Shown here: piece after piece, positions 2,191 through 31,065 of the stretch
How the letters are laid out: each line of letters begins with the position of its first letter
How positions within the stretch are numbered: position 1 is the first letter of the stretch
DNA from: Coriobacteriaceae bacterium
GTDB lineage: Bacteria > Actinomycetota > Coriobacteriia > Coriobacteriales > Atopobiaceae
Reading direction: 5' to 3'
Assembly (NCBI GenBank): GCA_003862195.1
Contig: QOUO01000018.1
Location: 1 to 37,137 of the forward strand
DNA length: 37,137 nucleotides
Program-made: the position numbers and the translations under genes
The notes under the pieces: generated by a model
The model's database searches: none
Told to the model about the DNA's origin: nothing
Seen by the model: only the letters and a program-made list of their open reading frames with translations

Positions 2191-2768
2191 GGCACAGAAC
2201 CCAACGTTCCGCGCAGGTCCCGGCGACTGACGTGGGATCTGTTACGAATCGACATGTGGCCCTGGCACAGAACCCACTGCACTTTCTGAATGCTCGCAAA
2301 CTCGAGCGAGAACTGTGCCGAGCTCGCCAAGGCCACGCACAGAACCCGCCCCACCTAACCCGAGGTCGCAAGCAACGCCGGGTTATGTACCATCCGAGCA
2401 CAGCCGAAACCGAGTGCGAAGGGTTCTGTACCACGTTTTGCAAGAATTGAAGGGTTCTGTGTGGCACCGATTTAGTTCAATCACATATAACCAGAGGTAT
2501 AAGACGTGCCTCATTTTTCCCGAGATCGCCGCCTTGGTACAGAACCCCGCAGAGCTGGAGAGCAGTCGTTCCAGGTGGCACAGAACCAAGGGCTTCTTGC
2601 GTGATGGAGCAAGAACCTCTGGGTTCTGTGCCGCCCTGCGCTGCATGGCCGGTACAGAGCCCACCCTTTCTCACATCGCCGTAACGTCACGAGGCTTCTG
2701 TACCAGTGGGCGGCTCGTTATCGCAGCGGGCCGCCTTGGCGCCTACGAACATCGAGGAGTTCTGTACC
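2191..2768 (-). repeat. Palindrome array A (higher-order unit in minus orientation)
   Basis: This gene-free stretch holds complete palindromic units at about 2191-2245, 2264-2319, 2336-2391, 2577-2632 and 2651-2704, each 54-56 bp, with arms GGYACAGAACCC and GGGTTCTGTRCC. Half units with one arm lie at 2421, 2452, 2536 and 2757. The unit 2577-2632 has perfect 11-bp ends and an inner TCTTGC/GCAAGA stem. The order unit, unit, half pair, linker, half, unit, unit recurs with a 313-bp step (2264 to 2577). It mirrors arrays B and C read backwards, so this array points in minus orientation, downstream of the NlpC/P60 gene. It is less GC-rich than the genes. Open frames across it show only repeat-derived residues. 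Confidence 0.85.
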
Positions 2769-2896: not shown

Positions 2897-4150
2897 CTAG
2901 ACGGGAGAGCCGCACCTGGAGAAGCTGCTCACGGAGCCATAGCCGATGCCCTGGCTCGGGGAGAACGCCTCGATGGTGACGCCACCGCCGATGTAGATGC
3001 CCACGTGACCCGGACGCCAGACCACATCGCCAGGCTGCGCCTGGGAGATGGGCTTGGTGCAGAACGACGCCTGGGAGGCGGAGCTGTGGTTGATGCTGAT
3101 GCCCGCGACCGAGTAGGCATACGACGTCAGGCCAGAGCAGTCGAACGTGCGCGTGGAGGGGCTGCAGGCGGCCCACACGTAGTTGCCGCCGACCATGGAG
3201 GTGGCAGCAGCGATGACGGTGTTGCGCCAGTTGCCAGAGACGGACGTCTTGCTGCCGGAGTTCGAGCTGTTGTTGGAGCTCGAGTTGCCCTTGTTCGAGT
3301 TGGAGCTGGAGTTCGACTTGGAACCACCGTTGGTGGACGTGTTGGTCTTGGTCGAGCTGGAGCTGGAGTTCGTGGTGCTCTTCGAGCTGGAGTTGCTGTT
3401 CGTGTTGGTGCTGGTGCTGCTGGAGTTGGTGCTCGTGGCGCCGTTGTCAGCGGCGATGTAGTTGCCGCCGTTCTGGGCAGCCTTGGCCTGCTGCGCGGCA
3501 GCCTCCTGGCGTGCCTTCTCCTGGGCCGCGGCCTGCTCCTCCTGCAGTGCCTTCTGCACCTCAGAGCTCAGGCTGTTGACGTACTCCTGGGCCTTCTTGG
3601 ACTGCTCGTTCAGAGACTCGCTCTGGGCCTTCTTGTCGGCAACGAGCTTCTCCTGGGAGGCCTTCTGCTTCTCGAGCTGGGACTTCTGGTCGGACAGCTG
3701 GGTCTGCAGGGTCTTGACCTCGTTGATCGCCTGGGTGTCCTTCTCGCTCACCTTGTTGGCGTACGTGATGTTGCTCGTGAGCGTCTCGAAGGAGTCGGAG
3801 CCGAGGAGGATGCTCAGCAGGTCGGTGTCGCCGTCCTTGTAGTTGGCGGCAACGCGCTTGCTCAGCACGGCCTGCTTCTCCTTCAGCTCGGACTGCGTCT
3901 TGGTGATGTCCGAGTTGAGGGAGTCGATCTTGGAGTTGGTCTGGTCGAGCTCGACCTGGGTCTGGTTCAGGTCCTCGGAGGCCTGCTCGGCCTTGGAGTA
4001 CAGGCTATCAAGCTTGGACTGTGCCGTCGCGAGCTCGCTCTTGAGCTCGGAGCTGGACGGAGTCGCTAGCGCGGGAACGGTCGCGCCAGAAAAAACGAGC
4101 GTCGCGGAGAGCGCGGCAGCAATGGCTTTTTGGGCTTTATTATGCTTCAA
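2897..4150 (-). CDS. Secreted coiled-coil NlpC/P60 (C40) peptidoglycan hydrolase
   Basis: The 417-residue protein is predicted to cleave peptidoglycan stem peptides outside the membrane. Start TTG 4150 is chosen because it follows a GAGG site and gives a clean signal peptide: KHNK basic start, hydrophobic core 10-24, cleavage after the ALA at 27-29. Residues about 33-228 form a long Gln/Lys/Glu-rich coiled coil like PcsB/RipC-type hydrolases, which FtsEX regulates in other bacteria. Residues about 238-305 are a low-complexity Ser/Thr/Asn linker. The C-terminal NlpC/P60 domain (about 315-417) keeps the catalytic Cys338 (in TFDCSGL) and His382 (in RPGHVGIYIGG). The third polar residue is probably near E394, where His or Asn is commoner. 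It has its own promoter and terminator. Division role is inference. Confidence 0.88.
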   Translation of the reverse strand: MKHNKAQKAIAAALSATLVFSGATVPALATPSSSELKSELATAQSKLDSLYSKAEQASEDLNQTQVELDQTNSKIDSLNSDITKTQSELKEKQAVLSKRVAANYKDGDTDLLSILLGSDSFETLTSNITYANKVSEKDTQAINEVKTLQTQLSDQKSQLEKQKASQEKLVADKKAQSESLNEQSKKAQEYVNSLSSEVQKALQEEQAAAQEKARQEAAAQQAKAAQNGGNYIAADNGATSTNSSSTSTNTNSNSSSKSTTNSSSSSTKTNTSTNGGSKSNSSSNSNKGNSSSNNSSNSGSKTSVSGNWRNTVIAAATSMVGGNYVWAACSPSTRTFDCSGLTSYAYSVAGISINHSSASQASFCTKPISQAQPGDVVWRPGHVGIYIGGGVTIEAFSPSQGIGYGSVSSFSRCGSPV

Positions 4151-4557
4151 AACCCGCCTCTTTCCTACTTCGTCGTGGACAACATGTCCCGACAATTCTA
4201 GCATCGTACGGACCCAACGGGCCAAATTGCCCCCGTTCGGGCGCCGCCAGGCAGGGCTGTCCCAGATGTCCTTCCCGTGTGCCAGCGGACTTTCTGCAGA
4301 TGGCAAGGGCGTTTTGGCTTCCTAAACGTCCCGTTTGGTCACGTGGCAGAAGTGTGAATTTGCAGAAATCATGGGCAGGTCCTCACGAATCCGCAGCTAA
4401 ACCCTCACGTTACCCTCAAGTAGCGCCACGCGACGCAAACGGGGAGCCCCTCCGCGGGCCGTCCGCAAGGGCGGATCGGCCGGGCGAGAAGGACTCCCCC
4501 ACGCGTCGAGACCGGGCCTCAGCCCGGGCCTTGGGCCACCCACGGCCCGGACCCTGG
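4151..4557. other. Gene-free region between the NlpC/P60 start and gatB end
   Basis: About 400 bp without a supported gene. It holds the NlpC/P60 promoter, an exact AAACG/CGTTT inverted repeat at 4324-4336 of unknown role, and one copy of the dispersed motif at 4482. GC-rich inverted segments at 4524-4550 (CCGGGCC / GGCCCGG) downstream of gatB could be a terminator, but no T run follows. A c-di-AMP riboswitch was looked for in the leader and not recognised. Confidence 0.5.
4195..4225 (-). promoter_or_regulatory. Candidate promoter of the NlpC/P60 gene
   Basis: On the minus strand, TTGGCC (4220-4225) is followed after 19 bp by TAGAAT (4195-4200), with an upstream TGC giving an extended -10. 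It lies about 45 bp before the TTG start. The spacer is slightly long, so the -35 assignment is tentative. Confidence 0.45.
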
Positions 4558-10433: not shown

Positions 10434-10778
10434 GATGCTCTTCTCCCCCTCACGCGGGCGCCGCATGCCGGCTGGCCGCCGGCTGTCGGCCGCTGCCAGC
10501 CGCTGACTGTCAGCCACAGCCGACCGCACCCGTGCGGTCAATCGTAGCAGACGCCGCCGACTACGCAGATGACGGGTGACGGCCGGCGCGCAGGCGCGAA
10601 TCTGTGGAGAAGGGATGAACCGCGCCTGGAGGGATGAATGCGGGATTGATGGGCGGCTCTTCTCGCCCGCCCGCGGTGCCTGCGCGGACCGCGCCCCGTG
10701 GCCGAACGCGACGCATATAAAAGACTGGGGCAAGGCATGCGCGAGCCAAGTGCAAGCCGCCCGTGCCATGATGCGGCA
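10434..10778. other. Divergent intergenic region between symporter and PD-(D/E)XK-like gene
   Basis: This region should hold two outward promoters. Visible items: a GC-rich series of overlapping CCGGCTG/CAGCCGG-type inverted repeats at about 10457-10515; a perfect hairpin GACCGCAC/GTGCGGTC at 10525-10542; two GGGATGAA direct repeats near 10614 and 10632; a dispersed-motif copy at 10656; and a CATATAAAAG tract at about 10713-10722 that could be a -10 for the plus-strand gene. No ORF here shows coding character. Confidence 0.5.
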
Positions 10779-11810
10779 ATGACGGTGCTCATCTCACATA
10801 CCACGGCGCCCTGGATCCTGTGCAGCCCACGGCTGCGCGCGGCGCTTGGCGCCTGTCGCGGGGTCGTGACGCTGGGCACGCCGCGCGAGCTTGCGGACCG
10901 CCTGCCAAACATTTGCAAGGTGCTAGGTTGGAACGCCGCTGGTTGCAGGGCAATCGACATCCTGGTCCGGCCGAGCACGAACCGGCGCAAGACGCAGCTG
11001 GCATACCCGCACGCCTGGACGCGCCCGCTTCCCGAGGGTGCGCTGCTGAGCCTCTGCGACGGGGTGGCGGTCGCATCCCCCGAGCTGTCGTTTCTGCAGA
11101 TGGCGGAGTACCTCGACGTGATCGAGCTGGCGCAACTCGCGTGCAGCCTATGCGGTGGGTACTTCCCCAGCGCGGACGAGAGGGGCTTTGTTGACCGGCA
11201 ACCGCTCACCTCGATCGAGCGGATTGACGGCTTCCTGGCAAAGCTGCGCGGAACGAGGAACGTCACGAAGGCGCGGCGGGCCCTGCGATGCGCCCACGAC
11301 CACGCGCGGTCACCCATGGAGACCACGACGGCGATGCTTCTCTCGATGAGCAGGCGCCAAGGTGGGTACGGCCTCCCAAAGCCGCAGCTCAACCACCGCG
11401 TCGAGCTTCCCGGGGACGTCGCCGCCGCTGCTGGCACGGGCCACTTCACGGTGGACCTCTTCTACCAGCGGGCCGGCAAGCCCAGCGGCGTCGCCATCGA
11501 GTACCTGGGGCGCGCCTATCACAAGGACGTCGCGCGCGACATCACCCGCGAACTGCTGCTCAAGCGGGCGGGATGCCCCGTGGTCGACGTCACGATCAGC
11601 CAAATCGTCCGAAGCGACCTGAGGAACCAACTTGTTGGCGACATCGCGCACGAGATCGGCTATCGCCTCAGGAAGGGGACGCCGCGCATCCGCGAGCGCC
11701 GCAACGACCTGCTGAACCGAATCCTCCCCCACCCGTCGCAGATCTCCCCGGACGGAAGCGTCACGTGGGAGAAGCCGGCGTGGGCACTCCCGCCAGAGCT
11801 CGCAACCTAG
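10779..11810 (+). CDS. Predicted PD-(D/E)XK nuclease-like protein of a coriobacterial paralog family
   Basis: The 343-residue protein resembles an actinobacterial family with an AbiEi-antitoxin-like N-terminal half and a DUF559/Vsr-like C-terminal half. Residues about 58-130 carry AIDILVRPSTNRR, an LPEGALLSLCDGVAVASPELSF strand-turn-helix and QLACSLCGGYF, all family marks. The putative nuclease core has E181, D226 (HFTVDLFY), E241 (VAIEYLG) and then HKDVARDITRELLLKRAGCPVVDVT, matching the D...E-x-x and DxxR...L..G pattern of Vsr/DUF559 folds, though no lysine follows E241 directly. Start ATG 10779 is preferred over 10698 because the upstream 27 residues lack similarity and the possible -10 lies there. 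It stands alone, between divergent transporters and palindrome array B. Function, antitoxin or nuclease, is not established. Confidence 0.6.
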   Translation: MTVLISHTTAPWILCSPRLRAALGACRGVVTLGTPRELADRLPNICKVLGWNAAGCRAIDILVRPSTNRRKTQLAYPHAWTRPLPEGALLSLCDGVAVASPELSFLQMAEYLDVIELAQLACSLCGGYFPSADERGFVDRQPLTSIERIDGFLAKLRGTRNVTKARRALRCAHDHARSPMETTTAMLLSMSRRQGGYGLPKPQLNHRVELPGDVAAAAGTGHFTVDLFYQRAGKPSGVAIEYLGRAYHKDVARDITRELLLKRAGCPVVDVTISQIVRSDLRNQLVGDIAHEIGYRLRKGTPRIRERRNDLLNRILPHPSQISPDGSVTWEKPAWALPPELAT

Positions 11811-11993: not shown

Positions 11994-12540
11994 CGTACAG
12001 AACCCCAACGACCTTGCTACAACGCAAGAATCCTCAGGTTCTGTGCCGGCTACTTCGGACAAGCTGGCACAGAACCCACTGGACGTTGCACAGCCGCGCA
12101 ACAATGAGCGGCTTCTGTGTGCCCTGGCTATCGTGGCTTCCAATTCAACGGTGTTCTGTACCAACAAAGATTCTAGTTGCAGACTTGATGTAGGCTGTTA
12201 CCTGCAGCTATACGTTTTTGAACGACCACGCCTCGCACAGAACCCGCTGGTCCTACCGCACGGATGGTACAGAACCCACCTCACCCGTAAGCGACCACCC
12301 AGGGATGGCACAGTTTCCCAGTCTTCTTACGTAGGCTCGCAAAGTGAACGGAGATTTGTACCGGGCTCAAGGCGGCCGCCACACAGATCCCCCGCCACCT
12401 TGCCATGCGTTGCAACCTCAGCCTGGTTCTGTGCCGGCCCCCTCAAGCTCGCCACACAGAACCCCACCCACATCCACCACCCCGCAAACCTCCTGCGGGT
12501 TCTGTGCACGCCGCCCCTCCGCCCCACACAGAACCCGCAC
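11994..12540 (+). repeat. Palindrome array B
   Basis: Complete units occur at 11994-12047, 12066-12123, 12307-12362 (degenerate), 12380-12435 and about 12452-12508, with single arms at about 12151, 12236, 12265 and 12524. The first unit has outer GTACAGAACC/GGTTCTGTGC arms, symmetrical 8-nt internal loops and an inner CTTGC/GCAAG stem with a 6-nt loop; the second has GTTGC/GCAAC. Corresponding units repeat at a 314-bp step (12066 to 12380), with the linker near 12206-12230 resembling that of array C. Orientation is plus, the same as the upstream gene. An open frame of about 280 codons crosses it but consists of repeat translations, so it is not called. The 11811-12763 gap holds nothing else except the flanking terminator and the suf promoter. 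Confidence 0.85.
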
Positions 12541-14958: not shown

Positions 14959-16124
14959 TGGCAAGCTACACCGCCGAGGAGCCCACGGTCACCCTCGAGC
15001 GCGTCAACACGCCGCCCGCGCAGACCTGGAACTACCTCAAGACAAACGACATAACGCTCACCGTCCCCAAGCTCTCGCGCAAGGGAGACGTCTACTTCGC
15101 GCTTCCCCGCCTCTTCGACAAGGTCGAGACGGGCATGGGCCAAAAGGTTACCGACTGGGTCACCTCCCAGGCCGCTGACTCCACGTACGTCGAGGTAAAG
15201 GCGGGCGAGAAGAACCATGCCCCCATCGTCGTGGACGTTGACTCCAACGCGGGCACCGTGCAGGACGCGGGCGTCCTCGTCCGCCAGGGCGCGAGCGCCA
15301 CGGTCGTCGTGGTCGCCCACGGCACCTCCGCGGAGCCCCAGACGTCCGCCGCGCTCGTGAGGATCATCGTGGAGGAGGGCGCGCACCTCTCGCTCGTGGA
15401 GGTCGTCGCCACCACGGACGCGCACCATCACCTCGAGTCCGTCGGCATCCACGCGGACGCGGGCGCCACGCTCGACATCCGCCAGTTCCTGCTCGGTGCG
15501 GGCGTCACGGCGCTCGGCACGTGCGCGACGCTCGCCGGCGACAACGGCCGCGTCAGCCTGCAGACCCACTACCTGGGCGAGCACGAGCAGACGCTCGACA
15601 TCAACCACGTCGTGCGCATGGCCGGCAAGAACGGCCGCGCCGAGGTGCACGAGAACGGCATCCTCAACGACAGCGCCCGCAAGTCGCTGCGCGCCACGAT
15701 CGACCTGATCCACGGCGGCTCCGGCTCCAAGGGCAACGAGGCCGAGACCGTGCTCGTCAACGGCGACGGCGTCGTCAACAAGACCATGCCGGTCATCCTC
15801 TGCGACGAGGACGACGTCCAGGGCAACCACGGTGCCACGATCGGCTCCGTCGAGCCCGAGCAGATCGACTACCTCATGGACCGCGGCCTGTCCCGCGACG
15901 AGGCCACCAACCTCTTCGTGCGCGCGCTGTTCGACGACGCCCTCATCGAGGCGGACCAGCCCCTGGCCCGCAAGGCCGTCTTCGAGCGCGCCCAGCAGGT
16001 GCTCGGGGCCGAGGTCGCCCAGAATCTTCTCGACACCCTGGGCCTCGAGCTCGCGGCAGACGCGGGCGAGAAGGACGCGGACGCACAGGCAACCGCAACG
16101 GCCACGAAGGAGAGCGCGGACTGA
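14958..16124 (+). CDS. sufD: Fe-S cluster assembly protein SufD
   Basis: The 388-residue SufD pairs with SufB and SufC2; it helps iron entry. It shares the beta-helix core, with LSLVEVVATTDAHHHLESVG near 135-155, and the C-terminal block QGNHGATIGSVEPEQIDYLMDRGL near 293-316, where the histidine corresponds to the E. coli SufD interface histidine. Start ATG 14958 overlaps the sufB stop and the stop overlaps the sufS start (TGATG). Two dispersed-motif copies encode AGEKN at about residues 83-87 and AGEKD close to the C-terminus in a disordered tail, so both tolerate insertion-like sequence. Confidence 0.95.
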   Translation: MASYTAEEPTVTLERVNTPPAQTWNYLKTNDITLTVPKLSRKGDVYFALPRLFDKVETGMGQKVTDWVTSQAADSTYVEVKAGEKNHAPIVVDVDSNAGTVQDAGVLVRQGASATVVVVAHGTSAEPQTSAALVRIIVEEGAHLSLVEVVATTDAHHHLESVGIHADAGATLDIRQFLLGAGVTALGTCATLAGDNGRVSLQTHYLGEHEQTLDINHVVRMAGKNGRAEVHENGILNDSARKSLRATIDLIHGGSGSKGNEAETVLVNGDGVVNKTMPVILCDEDDVQGNHGATIGSVEPEQIDYLMDRGLSRDEATNLFVRALFDDALIEADQPLARKAVFERAQQVLGAEVAQNLLDTLGLELAADAGEKDADAQATATATKESAD

Positions 16125-21291: not shown

Positions 21292-22623
21292 TTGGTCTTT
21301 CGATTGGCTTTCGACCAGATGAATCGCCAGTACGACGCGGCTTCGGCGGACAAGACGACCGTGCAGCCCAGGGGCTCGTACCAGGCGGGCGGCGCACGGC
21401 AGACGGGCCAGGCGGGTGGTACCTACCAGCCGCAGGGCTACGGCTACCAGACGCGCCAGCAAAGCTATGCGGCAGACAAGACGACGGTGGCCCCGGCGGG
21501 CCAGGCGGGCCGGCGCCCCGGCAGGACGACGGCGACCCCGCGCGACGCGTACGGCAGCGCGTATCGCGACGCCTACCAGGCGGACCGCACGCAGGTGGCG
21601 CCCGCGGCGCAAGGCGAGGGCGACGGCAGCCAGCCGCAAGACGGCAAGAAGGGCATCCTGTCCGAGTTTTCCGGCTCGGCGGTCATCGCGAGTGCGCTCG
21701 CGTCCGTCACGTCCTTTGCGCTGCAGTCCAAGATCGGCCTCGCCGGCTCGCTCATCGGCGTGGGCGTGGCCGCCGCAGCGACGACCATCGCGTCGCAGGT
21801 CTACAAGGGCATGCTGAGCGCCTCCGCAGAGAAGCTCAAGGGACTCTCCAACGACTCCCCCGCCGACGACGCGGACAGCCTCACGCAGAACCTGCGCTCC
21901 GACGCGGGCACCACGCAGGCGTGGGCCACGCCCGTCTCGCTTGACGACGCGGCCCAGACCGAGGGCGTGGCGGAATCCGGCACGCCCATCGCGCCGCAGA
22001 GCATGCGCAGCGCGGCCCAGACCAGGCACGGCAAGGTCGTCAAGCGCCGCACCGCCATCGTGCTGGCGGCCGCCGCGATTGCCGCCGTGCTCGTGTACGC
22101 GCTCGTCGTGAACCTCGCGACGGCCGGCCAGGGCATCGGCCCCACCACCACCGCAACCACGTCCCAGACGCAGTCCACGGACAGCAGCCAGACCGACTCC
22201 ACGGCAGACAACCAGAAGAGTACGGACGCCAACGCCAAGTCTGACGCTAACAAGCAGAAGGACGAGAAGGGCGACTCCAAGTCCTCCAACGGCACCTCTG
22301 GCACGAGCAGCACGGACTCCGGCACCGGCGCGTCATCCAACTCTGGCACCAGCTCCACCAGCGGCAGCGGCACGAGCTCCACCTCCGGCACCAGCTCGAC
22401 CAGCGGCAGCGGCACCGGCTCCAACTCCACCTCGGGCTCTGGCACCAGCTCCAACTCCGGCAACTCCGGCTCCACGGACAGCGGCAACACCAGCTCAGGC
22501 ACCGGCACCAACTCCGGCTCCAGCGACAGCGACTCGAGCACCACGTCCAACTCCGGAACCAGCACGAGCGGCAACTCCGCCAAGTCCACCGGCACCACGA
22601 GCACGACCTCGAGCACGAACTAG
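21292..22623 (+). CDS. Membrane protein with repeated DKTTV motifs and Ser/Thr/Gly-rich tail
   Basis: I do not recognise a named family. Possible starts are TTG 21292, TTG 21304 and ATG 21319; AGGAAGG at 21284 lies close to the first. The N-terminal cytoplasmic part contains ADKTTVQP, ADKTTVAP and ADRTQVAP in Gly/Gln/Tyr-rich sequence. A Gly/Ala-rich hydrophobic stretch (SGSAVIASALASVTSFALQ...GSLIGVGVAAAATTIAS, about residues 125-165) follows, then a basic anchor and one clear transmembrane segment near residues 253-278 (RRTAIVLAAAAIAAVLVYALVV). The last 150 or so residues are low-complexity Ser/Thr/Gly/Asn and presumably lie outside the membrane. A GGGGGAGAAG motif copy overlaps the stop codon. 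It is not an operon partner of the aminopeptidase by sequence, though it ends only 90 bp before it. Confidence 0.75.
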   Translation: MVFRLAFDQMNRQYDAASADKTTVQPRGSYQAGGARQTGQAGGTYQPQGYGYQTRQQSYAADKTTVAPAGQAGRRPGRTTATPRDAYGSAYRDAYQADRTQVAPAAQGEGDGSQPQDGKKGILSEFSGSAVIASALASVTSFALQSKIGLAGSLIGVGVAAAATTIASQVYKGMLSASAEKLKGLSNDSPADDADSLTQNLRSDAGTTQAWATPVSLDDAAQTEGVAESGTPIAPQSMRSAAQTRHGKVVKRRTAIVLAAAAIAAVLVYALVVNLATAGQGIGPTTTATTSQTQSTDSSQTDSTADNQKSTDANAKSDANKQKDEKGDSKSSNGTSGTSSTDSGTGASSNSGTSSTSGSGTSSTSGTSSTSGSGTGSNSTSGSGTSSNSGNSGSTDSGNTSSGTGTNSGSSDSDSSTTSNSGTSTSGNSAKSTGTTSTTSSTN

Positions 22624-24276: not shown

Positions 24277-25337
24277 GGCACAGAACCCCTGGCTCGTTAC
24301 GAAGGGCCGCAACGAACGCGGGGTTCTGTGCGGGACCGAGGGGCCCGATGCGGGTTTGGAAGGGTTCTGTACCAGACGTCACGACCGGCCGAATTTGAGG
24401 TAAGCCCCCTACCTGGCATTTCTTGTTGATTGGCGACTTCGACCTGACACAGAAACCGGGCTTCATTGCGAGCGCGTGGTACAGAACCGCCTGGTCCTGG
24501 CAGGGCATCACCCCAGGCGGCACAGAACCCAACGAATCTCGCGAGGGCCCGCAAGGAACTCCTGGTTCTGTACAACACTGCAAGACCACCTGATACAGAA
24601 CCCCTGACTCCTTGCAAGTCGTAGCAATGAGCACGGGGTTCTGTGCGGGACCGAGGGGCCCGATGCGGGTTTGGGAGGGTTCTGTACCAGGTGTCGGTCG
24701 TAGCGGCTTCAGACACGCCCGCCCCACCTGCGATCATACGTTTCTCAACCACAAGGCCTGGCACAGAACCCCAGTGACCTTGCAGAGCGGTGGTACAGAA
24801 CTGTCCGCTTTTGGAGGATGGGTCTCCGAGATGGCACAGAACCCAGGAATCCTCGCGTGGCGCAGCAAGGATCGCCGGGTTCTGTGCACCATTCCCTGGG
24901 AGCCGTGCACAGAACCCACCCCACGTTTCAACTCGTCGCAAAGAGCGGAGGGTTCTGTACGCGCCGAGACGGCCCATTGCGGCTTCGGAGGGGTTCTGTA
25001 CCATTCGGCAGTCGCGATGTCCTTTGGGGCAGCCGCCTCACCAGCGATCATATGTTTCTCAACCATATAGCCTGGCACAGAACCCTCGCGTCCTTGCAAC
25101 AAGGTGGTACAGAACCCGTCTCGACTGGCAACGGGTCAGTCAGGGTGACACAGAACCCAAGGCTTCCTACGCGATGTGGCAGGAATCGTTGGGTTCTGTG
25201 CGGACTTTCGCGGACGTCGTGAGCGCGCTGGCACAGATCCCACAGTTCGTTGCCCGGTGCCGTAACGAACGTTGGGTTCTGTGCACGAGCCGCAGCGCTA
25301 GGCCAGCGTGCTCGGCATTTCGTTGGGTTCTGTGCAC
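24277..25337 (+). repeat. Palindrome array C: about three 315-bp higher-order repeats
   Basis: Corresponding first palindromes begin at 24277, 24592, 24907 and 25230. Each period contains: palindrome 1 (56 bp), a single right arm, a linker with GATCATAYGTTTCTCAACCA (24735 and 25050), two left half units, and palindrome 2 (24833-24888 and 25147-25201). A 56-bp block at 24320-24375 recurs at 24635-24690 with one mismatch. Inner stems vary in a paired way (ATCCT/AGGAT versus TTCCT/AGGAA; CGTT/AACG versus CTTGC/GCAA). The array fills the gap between the convergent aminopeptidase and hydrolase genes and runs in the aminopeptidase's direction. Frames across it contain only repeat translations. Confidence 0.9.
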
Positions 25338-29043: not shown

Positions 29044-31065
29044 ATGACGTCCACAACGGACACGCAACGCAAGGCCGCCCCCCGCATGCAGAAGCGCGTG
29101 CGGGGGGCGGCCCGCGCCGTTAGGGGCGATCTTCTCCCCCGGCTCCTCCCCCGAATCGCGCCGTGCCTCGCCATCGTGGCGGTGACCGCGCTCATGGTGG
29201 GCATCCAGGCGGGCGAGAAGAGCGTGCTCATTGGCACGGACACCACCTTTCACTTCCAGCGCTTCTACGACGCGTACATGCAGCTGCGCACGGGCAGGTT
29301 CAGCTGGTTCCAGACCAACTTCGGCTTCCAGCAGTGCGGCCGCGTGGTCAACGCCGTGTACGGCCCGCTCTTCGCGTACCTGATGGGCGCTGTGCTTCTG
29401 GCGTCCGGCACGTGGCTGCGCTTCCAGATCGTGGTCAACGCAGCCGCCTACCTGCTCTGCGGTCTCGGCATGTACGCCTTCTGCCGGCGCGCCCAGGAGG
29501 CGAGCCTTGCATCTGCCTGCGCGACGCGCGGCATGTCATACGCGGGCGAGAAGGACGGCCCCCTCGCCCCGCGCGCGGTGTCCGTGCGACGCATCGTTGC
29601 GTGCGCCGTCGCCATCGCCTACATGTGCGTGGGCTGGGAGGCCCGCTGGCAGACCAACTCCAACATGGGCGCCTGGGGAGCGATCCTGGCCCCCTACCTT
29701 GGGCTTGTCTGCGTGAGGATGCTGGTGCCCGGCACGCGCCGCCGCGACGTTCCGGCCAGCGGGCGCCACACGGGCACCCGCCCGCGCGTGGGCGTGCTGA
29801 GCCTCGCGCTGGTGGTGGCGGTCATGGCGCAGATCCACCTGATGAGCTGCGCCATGTTCCTGCTGGTGCTTGTGCCGTTCTGGGTGCTGGGCATGGTGCG
29901 CGCCACGCGCCCCGGCGAGCGCCGCGACATGCTCCTGCGCACGCTGGCTGCGGCGGGCGTGGCCCTGGTGCTCACGGCGGACGTGTGGGCCGGCCTGGCG
30001 GAACTCATGCTCAAGAACCACACGGCTCAGCCCGTGGGCATGATGCTGGGGGCGGGCGCCCTCGGCCTTGACCTGGGGCTCTTCTCCAAACTGACCATCG
30101 GAATCCTGCCGCTTGCGCTGCTGGCCGTCGCCCTCGCGTGGGCGTGGCGCCGCCACGACGCCGTGGCGCTGCCGCTCGCGGCCGTGGGCGCCGCATTCCT
30201 GCTGGTTTCCAGCCGGCTCGTGCCGTGGGATGCCATCGGCCTGGCCGCGCCCGCGCTCACGCACACGATCCAGTTCCCCGTGAGGCTCACGGCCATGGCG
30301 TACCCGCTGCTGTTTGCGGCGCTCGCCGTGGCACTGGGCAGCCTGGCGACGCAGCCCGAGGCCACGCCGGCACAGCCCGCCGCGGGCGAGAAGCCCGCGC
30401 GTCCCGCGCTTCTCCCCCACCTCACGCGCCCGCGCCTCGCGCTCGCGGCGTCGCTTGCGCTTGCCTTTGCCGCGGTGGTGGCGCAGGCGGGCTGCGTGGC
30501 GTGGATGTCGCGCGCGTTCCACGAGGACTTCTCGTACGCCCAGAATGTCATGTACCTGACGGACGCCTCCGTGGCGGACCTCAAGCGCGCGGCCGCCACG
30601 GGCGAGCCGGGCCGGCTCATGGGCATGATATCCAAGCGCACGCCCGACTACCTGCCCAACCACAACCTGACGGACGCCCACGGCCTTTCCGCCCAGTACC
30701 AGGTGGAGGTCCTGGGCGCGCACGTGACGGGCGCGTTTGGCCACAGGGTTCTGGCCGATGGCGGGCTCGAGCTCACGTGGAGGCAGGATGGCGACGCGCG
30801 CGTGCGCGTGCCCGTCATCACGTACACACAGAGCCAGGTCACCGTAAACGGGAGGCGCGTCGCGGCAGACAAGCTCAAGGTTGACCGCATCGGCATGCCC
30901 ACGGTGCGGGGCCGCAAGGGCACCAACACGCTGGTCCTGCGCTTCCAACCCAGCGCGGCAACGTGCGCGTTGCTTGTGATTTCTATAGTCGCGTGGGTCG
31001 CGCTCGCCATTGACGCTACCATACGGTTGCTTAAAAGCCGTATGTCTATTCGTAATCGTGCGTAG
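29044..31065 (+). CDS. YfhO-like GT-C-type multipass membrane protein
   Basis: The 673-residue protein has roughly 11-13 hydrophobic helices. A first extracellular loop (about 62-95) reads GTDTTFHFQRFYDAY and then GRFSWF. The Asp (D66) plus H..R pattern right after helix 1 is the hallmark of GT-C sugar transferases that use lipid-phosphate sugars. B. subtilis YfhO, which adds GlcNAc to lipoteichoic acid, is the closest functional model I can name, although it is longer. The C-terminal region after about 500 is soluble and beta-rich. ATG 29044 lies 30 bp after the LtaS-like stop; the ribosome binding site is weak. Three GGGCGAGAAG copies encode AGEK (29211, 29544, 30384), and two reversed copies are also present. 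Confidence 0.65.
   Translation: MTSTTDTQRKAAPRMQKRVRGAARAVRGDLLPRLLPRIAPCLAIVAVTALMVGIQAGEKSVLIGTDTTFHFQRFYDAYMQLRTGRFSWFQTNFGFQQCGRVVNAVYGPLFAYLMGAVLLASGTWLRFQIVVNAAAYLLCGLGMYAFCRRAQEASLASACATRGMSYAGEKDGPLAPRAVSVRRIVACAVAIAYMCVGWEARWQTNSNMGAWGAILAPYLGLVCVRMLVPGTRRRDVPASGRHTGTRPRVGVLSLALVVAVMAQIHLMSCAMFLLVLVPFWVLGMVRATRPGERRDMLLRTLAAAGVALVLTADVWAGLAELMLKNHTAQPVGMMLGAGALGLDLGLFSKLTIGILPLALLAVALAWAWRRHDAVALPLAAVGAAFLLVSSRLVPWDAIGLAAPALTHTIQFPVRLTAMAYPLLFAALAVALGSLATQPEATPAQPAAGEKPARPALLPHLTRPRLALAASLALAFAAVVAQAGCVAWMSRAFHEDFSYAQNVMYLTDASVADLKRAAATGEPGRLMGMISKRTPDYLPNHNLTDAHGLSAQYQVEVLGAHVTGAFGHRVLADGGLELTWRQDGDARVRVPVITYTQSQVTVNGRRVAADKLKVDRIGMPTVRGRKGTNTLVLRFQPSAATCALLVISIVAWVALAIDATIRLLKSRMSIRNRA

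Follow-up and report, generated by a model that had tools for sequence, protein, structure and literature searches.

MITEs and other non-autonomous transposable elements are non-coding, dispersed and bounded by inverted termini, and they are present or absent at given sites among relatives. The subterminal transposase-binding arrays of Tn7 ends and of En/Spm place repeated sites in both orientations near the element ends, and plasmid centromeres such as parC of R1 consist of iteron arrays in which half-sites lie on both sides of a central region. Excerpts of PMC2817692 and PMC3116915 describe the REP, BIME and REPIN elements that go with RAYT as intergenic inverted repeats with regular spacing and composite arrays, whose species-specific sequence presumably coevolves with an enzyme acting in trans; REPs are highly abundant, usually with more than 100 copies per genome (PMC2817692, in excerpt). 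The pneumococcal BOX, RUP and SPRITE families are, in an excerpt of PMC3049150, likewise modular intergenic repeats, set beside the present elements by description only.

Here we report a family of non-coding DNA elements in Coriobacteriia that combine a conserved core and geometry with swapped arms, and whose presence varies between congeners. Like MITEs, they are dispersed, non-coding, present or absent at orthologous sites and, in the type-2 and g4 forms described below, bounded by inverted termini; they differ from MITEs in repeating the terminal motif many times internally under a fixed grammar, in keeping the core while the termini are swapped, and in having no convincing target duplication and no partner transposase in the loci fetched. 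Unlike Tn7 and En/Spm ends, they consist of array and core alone, with no inner gene save an insertion sequence (IS) at one locus, L154, and unlike parC of R1 they occur in several dispersed chromosomal copies. We know of no REP in which a shared core is flanked by swapped arms, and of no such design among BOX, RUP or SPRITE.

REP or BIME elements mobilised by RAYT, a Y1 tyrosine transposase, would account for the regularly spaced extragenic palindromes in alternating orientation that the arrays contain (by crude gene calls), for their composite build and for their species-specific sequence, all of which have counterparts in the REP literature cited above. However, no Y1_Tnp (PF01797) was detected in any of the three genus members, against 5 of 14 genomes for the control, and the roughly 25 dyads listed in the source genome are far below 100 copies. 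The arrays also differ from REP, BIME and REPIN elements in their bipartite half-sites of 24–28 bp, in the conserved core between the arms, in having several arm types per core and in the lack of covariation among congener dyads, and we regard this origin as very improbable.

Arms, spacing and period in the source genome

The window, that is, the whole stretch of 37,137 nucleotides that was analysed, is contig C65 of a genome (G000) of 2.42 Mb in 155 contigs, which carries four arrays: A, B and C in the window and D on contig C145 (3510–4420). The building block is a 12-bp arm, GGYACAGAACCC, pairs of which form 56-bp dyads in a strict spacing grammar. The window contains 106 matches to this arm with up to three mismatches, against 63.0 ± 8.0 expected, and none of 100 shuffles reaches 106; the palindrome pattern ACAGAACCCN{12,42}GGTTCTGT matches the genome 12 times forward and 11 times in reverse, against zero for the control. 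Together with the regularity of the spacing, these counts rule out chance repeats.

Array C (24277–25336, plus strand) lies between a gene for an M18 aminopeptidase (+) and one for an alpha/beta hydrolase (−) and holds three tandem core units. Arm scoring gives its layout, with signs for arm orientation and numbers for spacing in bp, as + 44 − 41 − 84 + 32 + 41 + 44 − 29 + 44 − 41 − 83 + 32 + 41 + 44 − 29 + 44 −, and so on. Seven 56-bp palindromic dyads occupy positions 24277–24332, 24519–24574, 24592–24647, 24833–24888, 24906–24961, 25147–25202 and 25230–25285, the last displaced by 10 bp from the 29-bp rule. Lone minus-strand arms at 24362–24373, 24677–24688 and 24991–25002 stand ahead of the three plus-strand cores, which the core alignment and core model place at 24374–24445, 24689–24759 and 25003–25073. 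Each core is followed by two lone plus-strand arms, starting at 24446 and 24478 (24446–24489), at 24760 and 24792 (24760–24803) and at 25074 and 25106 (25074–25117), and a terminal lone arm on the minus strand (25325–25336) closes the array. Direct repeats of 101 nt start at 24280, 24595 and 24909, with identities of 100, 85 and 69% and steps of 315 and 314. Other intergenic palindromes or repeats (AATGAGACAAAT / ATTTGTCTCATT; GTGGACAAATGGCTYTGACCGAAGCGTCC) lie downstream of the M18 gene at L049 and L055 of two relatives, G029 and G004.

Arrays A, B and D share the arm order of array C, A in reverse, and some of their arms have decayed. Array A (2191–2768, minus strand) has five listed dyads and lone arms around one core (2464–2535, minus strand), an 84-bp gap between opposed arms that scores E 8.2e-18 with a core model containing this very sequence. 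Array B (11994–12536, plus strand), with its core at 12163–12233 (+) by core alignment and core model, lies upstream of an ABC ATPase gene that adjoins SufB and that we read as sufC. Array D has two cores, 314 bp apart. Across 68 adjacent arm pairs no more than 130 bp apart in the four arrays, the spacing is 44 in 18 of 23 +/− pairs, 29–30 in 10 and 82–84 in 7 of 21 −/+ pairs, 32 in 6 and 41 in another 6 of 14 +/+ pairs, and 41 in 7 of 10 −/− pairs.

A step of 315 bp corresponds to the span across a single AT-rich gap, the core, and it recurs in tandem in arrays C and D only. A sequence-only reading of the window had described repeated palindrome units in array C, and the direct repeats, arm enrichment, palindrome pattern and spacing values show these to be real. 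It had placed their starts at 24277, 24592, 24907 and 25230; the recurrence stands, with the third arm starting at 24906 and the last step (24906 to 25230) measuring 324, one −/+ gap being 39 where 29 is the rule. A step within 310–320 bp is seen in all three window regions. The steps of 314 and 313 bp that the same reading gave for B and A are real, but each spans a single core, so that neither array has a tandem period. The 315-bp period is a tandem amplification within the source genome; the counterpart in the suf array of a congener, G001, measures 386 bp.

A profile model of 20 dyads, applied to the source genome, found only arrays A–D at E < 0.005; because 150 of 1,317 candidates were scored, copy numbers in this genome are lower bounds, and at least 25 dyads are listed. 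Four matches on other contigs all have E ≥ 0.011 within the same scored set; that on C89 sits in apparent coding sequence and was set aside, and those on C68, C132 and C101 are weaker. By crude gene calling the arrays lie between genes, with two loci overlapping a called gene by 10–79 bases, and among the window proteins searched are such common chromosomal products as lactaldehyde reductase, NlpC/P60, GatB, an amidase, the ABC ATPase beside SufB, FBP aldolase and M18 aminopeptidase.

The window also contains the word GGCGAGAAGGAC (up to one mismatch) 22 times on both strands against 0.32 expected, for example at 4483–4494, 16065–16076 and 29545–29556, all on the plus strand, and GGCGAGAAG and its complement are the most frequent 9-mers in a 400-kb sample of G001; the repeated word is possibly an uptake- or Chi-like signal. 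Short direct repeats at 22320–22571 and 3239–3435 (families D2 and D5) are probably low-complexity coding sequence unconnected with the arrays.

A shared core with other arms in congeners and other genera

In two congeners, G001 and G002, the spacing grammar is retained to within about 1 bp but is built on another arm, YACRCACCCG; G002 has beside it a third arm type, GGTACACGTSNG. Arrays in G001 were sought by scanning a 400-kb sample for locally repeated 9-mers. At the site of array B, upstream of sufC, G001 has an array with the arm GTACACACCCG, and G002 likewise has an array there; both match the spacing of array B to about 1 bp (44, 29, 41, 84, 31, 41, 44). No comparable array was flagged at sufC in 27 other relatives with a coarse repeat filter, whose 8-mer test missed the array of G002, several of these loci being cut by contig ends and six being read by eye. 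Next to array B, the window encodes a PDDEXK-like protein (10698–11810, plus strand; motif VAIEYLGRAYH, by eye) with no Pfam or NCBIfam match, and among the loci scanned its motif recurs solely in G001 and G002, at suf in both.

With a model of 12 congener dyads at E ≤ 1 and both strands counted, G002 gave 152 matches and G001 gave 34. Each of the 11 core-bearing type-1 arrays of G002 has a single core and obeys the grammar, with no tandem period; one type-1 example reads + 44 − 18 + 44 − 41 − 31 − 84 + 41 + 44 − 29 + 44 − 29 + 44 −. The type-2 arm, GGTACACGTSNG followed by GAGTTTGC, builds elements of about 680 bp that are 81–91% identical over longer alignments. Around the type-2 core the order is − 41 − 84 + 31 + 41 or its reverse at eight loci, amid many chance arm matches, and inverted termini can be read as GGTACACGTGAGCCCCGAGTT and, reversed, GGTACACTTCTGCC.

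Alignment of the 83/84-bp gaps of all arm types from the three species revealed a common core, TCTACCTGC..TAT.TG..TTGAACCAA, or in a fuller rendering TCTACCTGC.AT.ATRTG..ATTGAACCAA. A core model of 127 positions, built from 29 cores, was searched against 140 family genomes with 24 candidates scored per genome and stricter filters. Strong matches are confined to the genus, with at least seven cores in G000 (plus one overlapping reverse match), at least three in G001 and at least 22 in G002. Weak matches, with E from 2e-5 to 1e-2, occur in 23 further genomes of seven further genera, bringing the count to at least 26 of 140 genomes and at least eight of 35 genera, the own genus included. Many of the weak matches outside the genus span core positions only; those of G102 and some others in genus g4 span model positions 2 to about 100, helped by an arm similar to that of the congeners.

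Cores outside the genus are mostly flanked by inverted arms that are specific to a genus or subfamily, among them CTCTACTAACCTGAAGTTCG and CACCTGCAAGTGACA in G007, GTACACACCCGG, GCTCGTGCAAAAGT, GTTGTGTACAC and GGTTATGCG in genus g4, and AGTTACGCACTT in G149. An inverted repeat of at least 12 was found at 28 of 53 core rows, or at 22 of 45 distinct cores after removal of eight re-fetched copies, compared with 20 of 300 positions drawn at random from these loci (6.7%). By origin, such a repeat is present at 17 of 21 loci from the core model and at 5 of 24 from a short pattern, CTACCTGCNNHTATNYG. The distance from arm to core is constant to 1 bp in five subfamilies (7/7, 8/8, 3/3, 3/3 and 3/3 loci), and at two G007 loci one flank of the core shows the 41-bp step and the opposite flank 39 or 52. 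The short pattern, scanned in 396 class genomes and tallied by hand, has matches in 88 of them: across the 111 family genomes it matches 102 times (15 in G007) and the controls 6 times, and across the 285 class genomes from outside the family 34 and 14 times, respectively; in its exact form it scores 0 in all three genomes of the own genus. Because only 5 of the 24 pattern-only loci have an inverted repeat of at least 12, the tally over-counts elements.

No array with the exact own arm was found outside the source genome in the 140 family genomes, in genome_contigs or in viral contigs. Own-arm palindromes do occur, in 21 stretches of genome_contigs and 4 of viral_contigs with one palindrome each, matched on both strands, in counts from which records of or near the source genome were perhaps excluded; the sole own-arm palindrome among the 140 family genomes, in G076, is terminator-like by eye and was rejected. 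Rfam at gathering score gave no match in the window and nothing but one tRNA in 20 related loci, blastn against plasmid and phage collections gave no match with either array C or a G002 type-2 element, and no published description of the element was found in the open-licence PMC papers searched. The sequence-only reading, which had recognised no described element of this build, is in agreement with the empty Rfam, plasmid and phage searches, and its proposal of one composite family whose parts keep a set order, as opposed to independent hairpins, is borne out by the grammar, the core and the congener arrays. Following the family through the genome and its relatives, as that reading had suggested, showed core and spacing to be conserved and the arms to differ between species and subfamilies. 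As a defining property the 315-bp period finds no support, the 11 core-bearing type-1 arrays of G002 keeping the grammar without it.

Symmetry and base pairing of the dyads

The 20 own dyads with 44-bp spacing share the consensus GGYACAGAACCC-N5-WYCTTGC-N8-GCAAGRW-N5-GGGTTCTGTRCC, in which positions 13–17 are near random. In these dyads the named stem pairs have a covariation score of 0.144 against 0.094 for shuffles, none of 500 shuffles scoring as high, and two-sided changes, mainly in the inner stem, number 17 against 10.1 (reached by 4 of 500 shuffles); there is little covariation outside the named pairs. Folded against shuffles, three of four window dyads score z between −5.6 and −6.7 and the fourth −2.4; a single G002 dyad gave −1.5. 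The covariation and strong folds of the own dyads fit selection for pairing and speak for a structured RNA or a hairpin-forming single strand, either a transcript or ssDNA, in which pairing itself would matter. The elements of genus g4 point the same way, as they fold as long stems around the core, and at L181 and L207 the predicted stem extends into flanks without obvious sequence conservation. Minimal g4 elements have, by reading, terminal inverted repeats.

Against such a role, the 44 dyads of G001 and G002 lack covariation. Most of their variable positions pair at or below the level expected from independence; columns 12, 16, 18 and 23 have one or two more paired dyads than that. The variable arm position shows A-C in 15 dyads, A-T in 12, G-T in 12 and G-C in 5, with any trend running against pairing (Fisher p = 0.12). 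Because these dyads were chosen by exact arm cores, their invariant arm columns are so by construction. The arrays moreover contain more lone same-strand arms than there are possible partners, Rfam is empty at gathering score, and the strand of the core relative to neighbouring genes is mixed by reading; a promoter reading of the core was weighed by eye only. Taken together, we consider a structured RNA or single strand distinctly unlikely. We read the dyad instead as a two-fold symmetric protein site, with the pairing in the source genome as a counter-signal. The −/+ gaps of 18, 20–21, 27–30 and 39 between opposed arms appear by look to be roughly one DNA turn apart; in a period test of the gaps, 10.5 bp (R 0.87 and 0.92) is not favoured over other periods between 9.5 and 12, so that helical phasing is a suggestion.

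Turnover between species and a possible nucleoprotein platform

Nineteen array loci of G002 were placed in G001, leaving aside L146, whose flank has no G001 match, and two cores, at C1:51913 and C1:243513. Where G002 has its array, G001 has at most 61 bp at 10 loci, 155–206 bp at three and 0.8–0.9 kb of other DNA, with no array flagged, at three more; both congeners have an array at two loci, suf and L154/L163, and a single dyad at one. The cleanest case is the type-2 copy at L162, which is absent from L094 of G001 (about 376 bp; flanks 97% identical). The target duplication at L162 is at most 3 bp (GCC), and the other junctions read are not clean. Absence at G001 sites may reflect loss in G001 as an alternative to gain in G002. 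The presence of the suf array in all three species implies that some copies are old and stationary, and the G002 copies overall, at 66–92% identity, record no burst recent enough to serve as proof of movement.

Apart from one IS3-type insertion, neither a transposase or recombinase nor an autonomous element with matching ends was found in the array loci fetched. The exception, at L154:3760–5400 of G002 (type by reading; rve and HTH_Tnp_1 proteins), splits a type-2 array; as a candidate autonomous partner it was rejected, because it interrupts the array and its ends are by eye unlike the arms. Comparison by blastp of frames of at least 100 aa from 18 G002 loci, the window, L043, L097 and L163 gave no common partner gene; the clusters represented in at least three loci were array-derived frames, suf-region counterparts and one cluster of ABC-type ATPases, labelled from two of its three members.

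A fixed platform of the host, bound by a chromosomal protein for chromosome organisation, segregation or regulation of genes such as suf, with copies changing by ordinary rearrangement, would explain the strict geometry, the retention of array B at the suf operon in three species and of one array at the L154/L163 locus in two, and the failure to find a transposase beside the arrays. It sits poorly with the variation in copy number (at least 7, 3 and 22 cores in G000, G001 and G002), with the absence of the array from G001 at most of the G002 sites compared, with the coexistence in G002 of two arm types under one grammar and with the varied genes beside the arrays, and we think it unlikely. Scattered intergenic sites and differences in presence between congeners make a non-autonomous mobile element the most likely reading of the dispersal.

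We therefore favour, at a probability of roughly 40%, a nucleoprotein platform in which dyad sites surround a core and which is dispersed in the manner of a non-autonomous mobile element, both the bound protein and the mobility being putative. On this reading, each 56-bp palindrome would be the dyad site of a dimeric protein, each half-site being bipartite, with the outer 12 bp and an inner TTGC block spanning about two helical turns, and the lone arms would be bound by the same dimeric protein. The fixed spacings would allow many copies of the protein to join the core in a single nucleoprotein complex. The arm sequence would track a fast-evolving arm-binding protein and be replaced in concert, with core and geometry kept; this protein may act in trans as, or together with, a transposase or recombinase. 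In the source genome, the core unit would have been amplified in tandem, giving rise to the 315-bp period.

A broader reading, possible though on the doubtful side, is that these arrays form a new class of DNA element in which a common core would serve shared machinery, exchangeable arms would act as a lineage address through a fast-evolving adaptor, and the geometry would stay fixed, in up to eight genera of one family of Coriobacteriia and turning over between species. If the proposed platform is right, this bacterial family would harbour an unrecognised intergenic element whose recognition sequence shifts between lineages while core and geometry remain fixed. Its arms would then provide naturally occurring sets of matching sites and proteins in which to follow the evolution of DNA-binding specificity, and the arrays would point towards a mobilising or organising protein not yet described.
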